From the NCBI RefSeq assembly GCF_001612745.1, contig NZ_BDBA01000030.1, forward strand, positions 1 through 64,000: a DNA stretch of 64,000 nucleotides, written 5' to 3'. Of this stretch, positions 56,000 through 58,300 are shown one piece after another. The DNA is from Nocardia amamiensis NBRC 102102 (lineage in GTDB: Bacteria > Actinomycetota > Actinomycetes > Mycobacteriales > Mycobacteriaceae). The notes below the pieces were generated by a model. The model saw only the letters and a list, made by a program, of their open reading frames with translations. It was not told the DNA's origin and ran no database searches. Within the stretch, counting starts at the first letter, position 1, and the number at the start of each line of letters is the position of its first letter. The position numbers and the translations under genes are program-made.

Positions 56000-56479
56000 T
56001 CAGTCCCGTCGTGCGCCCCTAGGCCACACCACGGTGACAGGCATATGTCGCTCGCGAGCCACTGCCACCACATCCGCTGTGCCACCGAATCCCCGGGCGG
56101 GTAGACCGTCCCACACCGCAATGAGCTCGTCCGCCTCGTCAAGCATTCGCACACCGCCCGCCTGGTGGGCTTCCGAATCGGATTCTTCCCGACCGACTTC
56201 GATGATTTTTGTTGCGGCCGAATACAACTCGTCGTAGGTGGTGTGGTGTTCGGCGGGCAGACTGTCCCGATACTTGCGGGCGGGAACCACCACGATCAGA
56301 GAGCCGCCGAGATCGAGCACCGCACGGGCGAACAAACTATCCGGCCCGTCCGCGATGCAGCTCACAGCAACTAGTTCGCTGCTTGCGCGTTTCGCGACCT
56401 CCGAGCGCAACGCGGTCTCGACCAGCGCTGTCGCATCAGGTGGCAGTCCTCGATGCCCGGTAATAGCAACACGCGTCAT
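56000..56479 (-). CDS. SLOG-domain protein (YspA/cpYpsA-like)
   Basis: The 159-residue protein starts with the SLOG-type strand and loop VAITGHRGLPPDATALVETA and has CIADGPDSLFARAVLDLGGS, VVVPARKYRDSL and DEADELIAVWDGLPARGFGG, consistent with a nucleotide- or nucleotide-sugar-binding Rossmann-like fold. SLOG proteins bind or process nucleotide signals in DprA, LOG and some defence systems. Its ATG overlaps the stop of the XRE/TPR regulator (ATGA at 56476-56479), so the two are translationally coupled. The ligand is unknown. Confidence 0.75.
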   Translation of the reverse strand: MTRVAITGHRGLPPDATALVETALRSEVAKRASSELVAVSCIADGPDSLFARAVLDLGGSLIVVVPARKYRDSLPAEHHTTYDELYSAATKIIEVGREESDSEAHQAGGVRMLDEADELIAVWDGLPARGFGGTADVVAVARERHMPVTVVWPRGARRD

Positions 56480-57723
56480 TGCTCGTCCCGTCGGTAGAGT
56501 GTCGCCAGCGCGTCATCCAGCCGCCGGGCTTCCAGCGTTTTCGCCGGTAGGGTAGCTCGGAAGCCCCTGGCACGCCTGGTAATTCGCTCGCTGCGGTGAC
56601 TGAGGCCAACTGTTAGCGCTTCGGTGGCCAGCTCGCAGCCGCCCTCGATATCGCCGGTGCGAGCCAACACGTGCGCGTGTTCGACCTGCGCCAACGCCCG
56701 TGGCTTCGCCGTGTTCAGCGCTGGCTCGGCCGCAATGAACGCCGAACGTGCTGACCGGAAATCGCCGAGTCGCGCAAGGGTGCTCGCCTGATACCGCGCT
56801 GCCTTGGCCTCATCGAACACGAATACCCATGGCCAACGCGGTTCGCCACGCTGACGGCTCGCCAGCTGCTCGGCACGGCGTAACGACTCTGTGGCACTCT
56901 TTCGGTTCCCCGTAGCCGCATGAGCTACCGCTAGCAAGGAGGCCAACCACGCTCCGGCGCTGTCTGGTACATCCGTGCCCAGTTGCGCCGATGCAGTATG
57001 AAGTAGAACCAGTCCCGCACCCGCGTCGCCGCTCTCCACGGCGTAGTGCCCGAGGCTCGCTGTCATATACGCGACGAGGAGCGGATGATGCGTCCGCTCA
57101 GCATGGCCTAATGCCTCCGTATACCTCCGCCGCGCGGCGGCGTCGTCACCCCGATCTGCCGCAAGCCACGCCGCAAGGCCAGCTATTTCCGACAGGACGC
57201 GAAAGCCAGCCGAAGTTCGCAGCCGATCACCCACGATGCCAGTGACAAGACCAAGGTGTGCCTCGACAGCCGGTTGAAGCCGATCGGACGGCACCGACGA
57301 TTCCATACGGCGGTAATGCGTGGTCGGACCAGCGATCGCATCGACCAAATCGCTGTCGCTCGGCGCTGAGTTGACTAAAACCGCGCCAGCGCTCATCGCC
57401 ACCGCGGTCTCGAGGAACTGCTTGCGGTTCACGTCATCATCGCCCGACAGGCTTCGGTGCCGGGTGAACCCGAGTTCGGCATCCGTCGCTACGTTCAGAA
57501 CAGCTCGGAGTGCCGCACGGTAGTGCTTTCGCGGCCACGTCGTTTCGCCTCGCTCCCATTTGCCGACGTGCCGTTCATCAACGGCACCCCGCATATTGGT
57601 TGCCCGGAAAACGTGGTCATTGACCGCATCCGCCAGTTCTTGCCGAGTCATCGAACGGCCAGGCGCTCCGGGCGATTCCACCCGCAACCGCGCCTCCACT
57701 AGCAGGTCATTCCGTCCGGTCAC
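56476..57723 (-). CDS. XRE-type regulator with TPR-like repeats
   Basis: The 415-residue protein has an N-terminal DNA-binding region (about residues 5-70: SMTRQELADAVNDHVF and HVGKWERGETTWP) and a C-terminal helical repeat region of TPR type (RRRYTEALGHAERTHHPLLV; GDFRSARSAFIAAEPAL; LARTGDIEGGCELATEAL). Similar Streptomyces/Nocardia proteins regulate nearby genes by sensing peptides or proteins. The GTG at 57721-57723 is the likely start; GAGAGG is about 12 bases upstream. It is coupled to the SLOG gene and divergent from a decayed conserved gene. Confidence 0.85.
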   Translation of the reverse strand: MTGRNDLLVEARLRVESPGAPGRSMTRQELADAVNDHVFRATNMRGAVDERHVGKWERGETTWPRKHYRAALRAVLNVATDAELGFTRHRSLSGDDDVNRKQFLETAVAMSAGAVLVNSAPSDSDLVDAIAGPTTHYRRMESSVPSDRLQPAVEAHLGLVTGIVGDRLRTSAGFRVLSEIAGLAAWLAADRGDDAAARRRYTEALGHAERTHHPLLVAYMTASLGHYAVESGDAGAGLVLLHTASAQLGTDVPDSAGAWLASLLAVAHAATGNRKSATESLRRAEQLASRQRGEPRWPWVFVFDEAKAARYQASTLARLGDFRSARSAFIAAEPALNTAKPRALAQVEHAHVLARTGDIEGGCELATEALTVGLSHRSERITRRARGFRATLPAKTLEARRLDDALATLYRRDEQ

Positions 57724-57978
57724 GGGACTTCGGCCTCTCTGCTGGACCTCACCCGAGAATAAGCACAACCGCAGTAGTCAGCCAGCGTTCCCACTGATTT
57801 CCCACAGTCTTCCCCGACATCCGCCGTCGACCTCGTGTGCGCGACACGACACCGTAGATACCAGCCCCGACGCCGGGTGCTCCCGGTTCCTCATCCCGGC
57901 ACGCCGCCATTCAGTGTGGTCGGCGGTGATGGCCTCGGCGTCGGGTGCTTACCAACCGGACGAGCGAGGGAGGCGCGG

Positions 57979-58300
57979 GTGGGTTCACCAGGACGGATCG
58001 GGGACACGCCGTTGTCGGTCTGCCACTTCTACCGGCAGGTGTGTGACCTGCCCGCAGAGGTGGAACCAGCACATCTAGGACGGATCGCGCTACGGACCGG
58101 CAGCGTGTGCGGGTTGGTGATGCCCGCTTTCGTCGGGTGGGAGGTCAAGGCGTGGATGCAGCGCCACGGCCACCGGCTGGGACCGGTCCTGACTCATCCG
58201 CGCTCACGGCGCTGGACGTTCCTGACCGGCCCGGACTTGCCGAACGATGTCGGCTTGTTCGCCGAGATGGCCCGGCTGGGTTGTGCGGCAGTAATGCCCT
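57979..58300 (+). pseudogene. Truncated member of a conserved Nocardia family
   Basis: From the GTG at 57979 (GGGAGG six bases upstream) the frame reads SPGRIGDTPLSVCHFYRQVC, DLPAEVEPAHLGRIALRTGS, VCGLVMPAFVGWEV and HPRSRRWTFLTGPDLPNDVG, which I recall as a frequent Nocardia/Rhodococcus hypothetical family. Similarity fades after about 58300; the expected C-terminal third is missing, and the frame then runs on through the antisense esterase gene without a credible domain. A frameshift or fusion event near the esterase end is likely. The C-terminal boundary is approximate. Confidence 0.55.

Follow-up and report, generated by a model that had tools for sequence, protein, structure and literature searches.

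A SLOG-fold protein encoded in overlap with an NsdA-family regulator in Nocardia amamiensis, a possible two-protein signalling switch of actinobacteria

The window, a stretch of 64,000 nucleotides from Nocardia amamiensis NBRC 102102, carries two overlapping genes on its minus strand. The downstream gene (56000..56479, ATG start) encodes a SLOG-fold protein of 159 amino acids, designated P0001 and characterized by its open reading frame, an AlphaFold2 model, PDB fold matches and dN/dS. The upstream gene (56476..57723, GTG start) encodes P0002, a TPR-like regulator of 415 amino acids that was assigned to the NsdA family by the NCBIfam model NF053720. The regulator stop TGA and the SLOG start ATG share the four bases ATGA (56476..56479, minus strand), as the first-pass annotation had claimed, and its frames, strand and coordinates were all correct. 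The overlap suggests that the two proteins are produced jointly. Both genes are under purifying selection, with a dN/dS of about 0.06 for each between the window and the related locus L032, a rough value since dS exceeded 1. The GC3 of the pair was 0.66–0.67, whereas six further window genes had values of 0.84–0.91, suggesting that the pair is of foreign origin.

To characterize the small protein, we built an AlphaFold2 model of P0001 from 37 Nocardia sequences. The model had a mean pLDDT of 93.6 and a pTM of 0.89, and it showed the Rossmann-like fold of the SLOG superfamily. Its best PDB fold match was YpsA (2nx2; Z 18.6, rmsd 2.6, 154 aligned positions), which Foldseek likewise placed first; further matches were DprA (3uqz, Z 15.7), ShosA (8zva, Z 15.1) and LOG (5zbl, Z 12.5), and the ThsA SLOG domain with 3'cADPR (7uxs) was a much weaker one (Z 8.1). 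P0001 is confidently predicted to be a YpsA-like SLOG protein, and the earlier claim that it has a SLOG fold agrees with the model. Residues T7-G8-H9, G45, D47, W123-D124-G125 and G133-T134 were invariant in all 37 family sequences. G45-x-D47 falls in the same alignment column as the GxD/E motif of YpsA (GVE in YpsA itself), which the available passages of one study present as a predicted substrate-binding motif and the signature of the YpsA clade (PMC6459960). The 37/37 alignment gives the firm count for GxD, as the regular expression run over the rows of the tree branch was loose.

LOG enzymes carry the catalytic motif GGxGTxxE, with its Glu. P0001 reads GGTADVVA at this place and was rejected as a LOG phosphoribohydrolase. 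The Glu was found in 3 of the 117 rows of the window's branch of the SLOG tree, where three more rows gave no motif match, against 7 of the 29 rows of a second branch. Its absence from nearly all of the window's branch favours ligand binding over LOG chemistry, and P0001 appears more likely to be a binder than a LOG-type enzyme. P0001 was also rejected as a DprA protein, because it scored 16.6 bits against Pfam DNA_processg_A, below the cut-off of 29.6; this Pfam family matched 8 of the 37 family members at E ≤0.01. Searches with P0001, alone or as a profile, returned nothing over curated cut-offs in Pfam, NCBIfam or PADLOC and nothing convincing among PDB sequences, where the antibody chains retrieved look like chance matches. 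The matches in PHROGs, which has no curated cut-offs, were weak (1.8e-5 and 0.0018), and one annotated phage record matched P0001 with 32.7% identity (1e-11).

P0002 scored 190.9 bits against NF053720, whose cut-off is 75, and 36.1 bits against the NsdA equivalog NF050130, whose cut-off is 830. It was therefore rejected as NsdA itself, and it seems better classed as an NCBIfam NsdA-family TPR-like regulator than as a generic XRE protein. An alignment of 16 P0002-type sequences, the window's included, had a mean column identity of 85%. Residues 1–86 (57466..57723, minus strand) form a putative DNA-binding, HTH-like region, recognized by its conservation and its predicted helices (residues 27–42, 50–57 and 65–76; pLDDT of the block 69–78). 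This region was highly conserved in Nocardia and 52–63% identical across seven loci of other genera. HTH_3 matched 2 of 14 family members (best E 0.043), with no HTH family of Pfam over its cut-off, and a PDB sequence search with the N-terminal part gave no convincing match. Residues 123–414 (56482..57357, minus strand) were modelled as a TPR-like helical superhelix, and the Pfam TPR matches were sub-threshold (TPR_12, 15 bits against 30.1). PDB fold matches of this part included MalT domain III and the RRNPP-type regulators Rap, NprR and AimR (Z about 16–20); eukaryotic TPR proteins outscored the bacterial ones (Z 22.3), and as such Z values are common for helical repeats, the TPR match is generic. 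The ligands of Rap, NprR, AimR and MalT are peptides or a sugar. PHROGs, here again without curated cut-offs, matched P0002 to phrog_10886, 'transcriptional regulator' (3.9e-26). The first-pass label of an XRE/TPR regulator thus held for the TPR part, whereas the XRE-type helix-turn-helix is plausible.

Alignment of the upstream regions revealed four conserved features, all on the minus strand. Nearest to the regulator gene is a leader, AGGTCCAGCAGAGAGGCC (57732..57749), with the ribosome-binding-site-like AGAGAGG. It is preceded by TATTCT (57756..57761), a −10-like hexamer that reads TATnnT in all 13 aligned loci. Further upstream lie the direct repeats GGGGAA-N5-TGGGAA-N5-TGGGAA (57788..57815), which have an 11-bp phasing and constitute a candidate operator, and then a conserved TCGACGGC element (57823..57830). 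A scan of the window promoter for the sigma-70 consensus and for terminators returned nothing; this consensus fits actinobacteria poorly, and the −10-like assignment of TATTCT is drawn from conservation. The repeats stand upstream of this hexamer, a placement typical of activators. Of 18 Nocardia relatives, 14 had two or three phased repeats in corresponding positions (L034 had one site, and L039, L047 and L051 had none); this figure describes the loci from which the motif was derived and is not an independent test of it. Phased repeats occurred in none of 13 rows outside Nocardia, two of which (L124 and L185) represent one contig, judged by length. In the 8.24-Mb host genome, the triple repeat was present once at ≤2 mismatches, at the P0002 promoter. 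The simplest reading is that the phased repeats are a local autoregulatory site for P0002. Upstream of position 4951 in L039, where the promoter repeats are gone, the sequence resembles a GC-rich repeat.

The proposal that the two genes form a pair was followed across related genomes, and their adjacency proved to be conserved. A SLOG relative was present in 100 of 148 Nocardia genomes. We collected 20 close Nocardia loci with 63–80% identity to P0001, leaving out short or split close matches in genomes G001, G097, G105 and G134, and P0002 or a remnant of it lay upstream of the SLOG gene in all 20: the regulator was full-length in 16, split in two in L034 and a remnant in L033, L037 and L051. 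Conversely, a P0002-like regulator (E up to 1e-50) was found in 19 of the 148 genomes when the 12 best first-look candidates per genome were scored; the SLOG gene followed directly in 18 of them, and G001 had a short SLOG remnant. The four-base overlap of the regulator frame with the SLOG start was kept in 18 of the 19 Nocardia loci with a regulator match of at least 60 bits, the window included. In L039, the two genes are about 50 bases apart and the overlap is lost. A toxin–antitoxin module was considered and rejected, because each partner does occur without an intact counterpart: only remnants of the regulator accompany the SLOG gene in L033 and L037, and in G001 the regulator is followed by a remnant of the SLOG gene.

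A wide genome scan, in which at least 567 relatives were confirmed, extended the pairing beyond the genus. The P0002-type regulator lay upstream in 67 of the 80 best named loci, 11 of which were Nocardia loci counted already; a second TPR type was found in 1 and neither type in 12. The named loci span Nocardia, Pseudonocardiaceae, Streptosporangiaceae, Thermomonosporaceae, Streptomyces, Frankia, Kribbella and others. Across the class, the SLOG gene was present in 47 of 246 genomes, and the P0002-type regulator accompanied 16 of the 20 best class-level SLOG matches and none of 20 lower-ranking ones; these two samples were chosen by rank and were not random, and they include contigs that, judged by length, are among the named ones (L184 that of L107, L185 that of L124). 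Pairing was scored without gene calling and required a same-strand match at any place in the 2.6 kb upstream, and all but two (−147 and −52) of the 101 regulator matches of at least 60 bits ended −37 to +7 bases from the SLOG start. As a control, 2.2 million bases outside this slot in the same loci contained 3 regulator matches, two of them in L042, a locus with partial second copies. Set against these 3 control matches, the proportions of 67/80 and 20/20 indicated that the pairing is not due to chance.

Trees of the two proteins were then compared. The regulator tree started from the 107 loci with a match; we removed 6 matches below 60 bits and 3 that were split or distant, and then frames shorter than 340 amino acids, frames with stops and duplicates. 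In a quick search, the 78 SLOG-adjacent regulators grouped together to the exclusion of 20 NsdA-family paralogues from the window's own genome (SH-aLRT 99). Pairwise distances of SLOG proteins and regulators were correlated (Mantel r 0.77, 77 pairs, 0 of 999 permutations as high), a correlation that mixes co-adaptation with shared descent and that shared descent alone would also give. For 49 of 77 loci, the closest relative by SLOG protein also ranked in the top three by regulator distance. The SLOG tree, made from 154 of 171 loci (130–185 amino acids, duplicates removed), placed the window in the 117-row branch, which was weakly supported (81/86) and had 91 regulator-paired rows. On these sequence comparisons, the regulator–SLOG partnership is old, and in Nocardia it is exclusive. 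Neither regulator type was upstream in 25 of the 117 rows, 11 of which fell in one sub-branch, and the SLOG gene stayed intact in L033 and L037 while the regulator was only a remnant, indicating that the SLOG protein is able to work without a P0002-type regulator. In 14 of the 29 rows of the second SLOG branch, the regulator was of a different TPR type. The SLOG genes of this branch (about 44% identity) stand behind this other TPR-type regulator on contig C47 of the window's genome (L063, 6008–6487) and in L058–L060 and L065–L068. The regulator was full-length in L060, L066, L067 and L068; on C47 it was a short fused remnant, with the SLOG gene intact.

Because the overlapping genes have stayed together through many soil actinobacteria, they probably make up one signalling switch. 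In the form that we tentatively prefer, at somewhat less than even confidence, a nucleotide-binding SLOG protein acts on an NsdA-family regulator that controls its own promoter. The ligand or substrate of P0001 would be a small nucleotide, with an adenine- or ADP-ribose-type metabolite as the likeliest candidate; P0001, made beside the regulator, would act on it. The TPR superhelix of P0002 would receive the signal, either by contact with the SLOG protein or by binding of a ligand under SLOG control, and P0002 would bind the phased GGGAA repeats that directly precede its promoter, setting the level of both proteins. As the first-pass annotation proposed, the pair would couple a nucleotide signal to transcription, for which the GxD motif of the YpsA clade and the relatives beside TIR and caspase genes offer indirect support. 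We infer the ligand class, the communication between the two proteins, the DNA binding, and the autoregulation with its sign.

The main rival to the switch is that the SLOG protein is an output, namely a nucleotide-processing enzyme or effector under the control of a regulator that senses its own TPR ligand, with no communication between the two proteins. The host genome provides a context for this explanation: 33 of its loci exceeded the cut-off of the NsdA family, and in 6 of 20 examined among the 32 others, a small partner gene started −12 to +62 bases from the regulator stop. The partners (L165, L166, L167, L173, L176 and L178) matched TrmO_N, APH, NUDIX, Thiamine_BP (twice) and GNAT. A regulator followed by a small enzyme or binding-protein gene is thus a recurrent, wider theme, and this, together with the persistence of the SLOG gene where the regulator has decayed, speaks for an output. 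However, the age and exclusivity of the partnership in Nocardia go beyond the needs of a simple target gene, and P0001 shows neither a conserved LOG active-site Glu nor any other catalytic motif that we identified. We regard the output explanation as a real but somewhat doubtful possibility.

A clue to the ligand of the proposed switch came from plasmids. Outside Actinobacteria, 13 plasmid records matched P0001, and 8 of them had a caspase gene beside the SLOG gene (4 from Agrobacterium, 2 from Rhizobium, B. subtilis pBS72 and one from Methylorubrum). A TIR gene adjoined in all 6 caspase records inspected; two Agrobacterium records are known from the caspase overlap alone. The cassettes of TIR, caspase and SLOG genes are tightly packed (L155 4651–6492, L157 3611–5980, L159 2629–4483, L160 5001–7371, L224 1611–3980 and L227 1651–3492). 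On a Novosphingobium plasmid, the SLOG gene is accompanied by a TIR gene and by a gene for an 8xMP membrane protein, also tightly packed (L158 3999–5471). The SLOG match in two Caballeronia records is overlapped by a gene annotated as DUF4231, and a TIR gene follows downstream (L163 3001–6510 and L228 3001–6510). SLOG, GIY-YIG nuclease and NADAR genes stand in a row on a B. velezensis plasmid (L226 2857–5509); there was no TIR gene within 3 kb of the SLOG gene in the Cytobacillus and B. velezensis plasmids. Agrobacterium, B. subtilis and Novosphingobium each had a Pfam ThsB_TIR match above the cut-off, and Agrobacterium and B. subtilis also had a Pfam caspase match; the remaining TIR and caspase assignments on plasmids are annotation. 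The annotated SLOG start of B. subtilis overlaps the caspase stop by four bases, and Agrobacterium has the same overlap if its SLOG gene begins at the TTG of the match start instead of the annotated start. The SLOG protein is a third component of these Thoeris-like plasmid cassettes, beside the TIR protein and either a caspase or 8xMP.

In type IV Thoeris, according to the passages covered, the N7-cADPR made by the TIR proteins switches on a caspase-like protease (PMC12847820), and another study discusses YpsA-like SLOG domains as sensors of cADPR (PMC9503650). The presence of SLOG relatives in TIR–caspase cassettes hints at an ADP-ribose-type ligand for the P0001 family. The TIR-linked plasmid SLOG proteins belong to a separate branch with only 28–37% identity to P0001, so the ligand may differ; five of them grouped together in the SLOG tree (99/93).

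These cassettes also raise the explanation of a defence or conflict module, in which a cADPR-type signal made by a TIR protein would be sensed or destroyed by the SLOG protein, with the regulator adjusting that arm of immunity. Besides the TIR–caspase, TIR–8xMP and Caballeronia arrangements and the known action of N7-cADPR, the patchy presence of the pair in Nocardia and its low GC3 fit such a module. We consider it unlikely, given the separate branch of the TIR-linked proteins, the Cytobacillus and B. velezensis relatives with no TIR gene nearby, and the surroundings in Nocardia. The window's contig, C30, has no TIR gene, and the TIR_2 and ThsB_TIR matches of the host are on C91, C23 and C133. 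No defence island was recognized around the 20 close Nocardia loci, where PADLOC matched 9 families with one or two proteins each among 147 proteins; the scan covered 147 of 179 proteins (at least 80 amino acids, within 4.5 kb), with those of L044, L045 and L049 all out and three each of L048 and L050 out as well. The neighbour proteins were predicted with our own gene caller, which shortened both genes of the window, and Pfam matched 130 families among them, of which the first 25 were considered. Membership of the window locus in Thoeris was rejected for want of a TIR gene (ThsB) in its operon. The last explanation, a DprA- or LOG-type housekeeping protein (a recombination mediator or cytokinin-type phosphoribohydrolase) that stands behind the regulator by chance, draws on the sub-threshold DNA_processg_A matches and the fold common to DprA and LOG, and is very improbable because YpsA is nearer in fold, 159 residues leave no space for additional domains, the LOG Glu is missing and the regulator link is far above chance.

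A bolder extension of the two-protein switch is an actinobacteria-wide transcriptional arm of cyclic-ADP-ribose-type signalling, in which a stand-alone SLOG receptor, from a family found with TIR–caspase cassettes elsewhere, would be wired to a dedicated NsdA-family regulator and an NAD-derived second messenger would switch gene expression rather than kill the cell; we rate this as improbable. If the ligand is an ADP-ribose derivative, TIR- and NAD-based immune messengers would be linked to transcription control in antibiotic-producing bacteria.

P0001 and YpsA of B. subtilis (SLOG superfamily, DUF1273) are alike in fold, in the column of the GxD/E motif and in their single-domain size, but they share 17% identity, and the available passages on YpsA describe it with no regulator as a partner (PMC6459960). 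Antibiotic production in Streptomyces is lowered by NsdA, and in S. rimosus the DNA-binding NsdAsr reduces rimocidin output (PMC12243394). P0002 passes the model of this family and fails that of NsdA, and it differs in having a fixed SLOG partner gene and repeats at its own promoter. Thoeris and type IV Thoeris are related through the SLOG members of TIR–caspase operons and, distantly, through the common fold of the ThsA SLOG domain; in contrast, the window's contig lacks a TIR gene and its SLOG stands as a protein of its own next to a transcriptional regulator. The protein families are already known, whereas the fixed pair, its spread and the promoter site were not found in the open-access literature searched. 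The pairing of a SLOG protein with an NsdA-family regulator did not appear in the open-access titles and abstract starts searched, and the founding SLOG survey of Burroughs (2015) may mention it. The literature passages covered named no ligand for NsdA-family regulators. A fixed partner with a ligand-binding fold offers a direct handle on their signal, and with one such promoter site per genome the switch is easy to assay.

Several minor features were seen around the loci. A divergent frame on the plus strand of the window (58042–58300) had 68% similarity to L032 over 116 residues; its counterpart in L032 overlaps a called 142-aa gene with no Pfam match. By eye, the similarity ends near 58300, and the frame is perhaps a truncated gene. 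In L043 (7537–7878), L040 (4423–4785), L044 (4245–4586) and L045 (4103–4444), a small divergent gene faces the regulator at about 180 bases; by our own reading it resembles the N-terminal part of a serine recombinase, and the L043 copy had no Pfam match. Contig C4 of genome G105 (L042) contained six SLOG matches, of which two are the halves of a split copy and one has an inner stop. Partial second copies of the regulator also lie close to the intact L042 pair, and the module seems to duplicate and decay.
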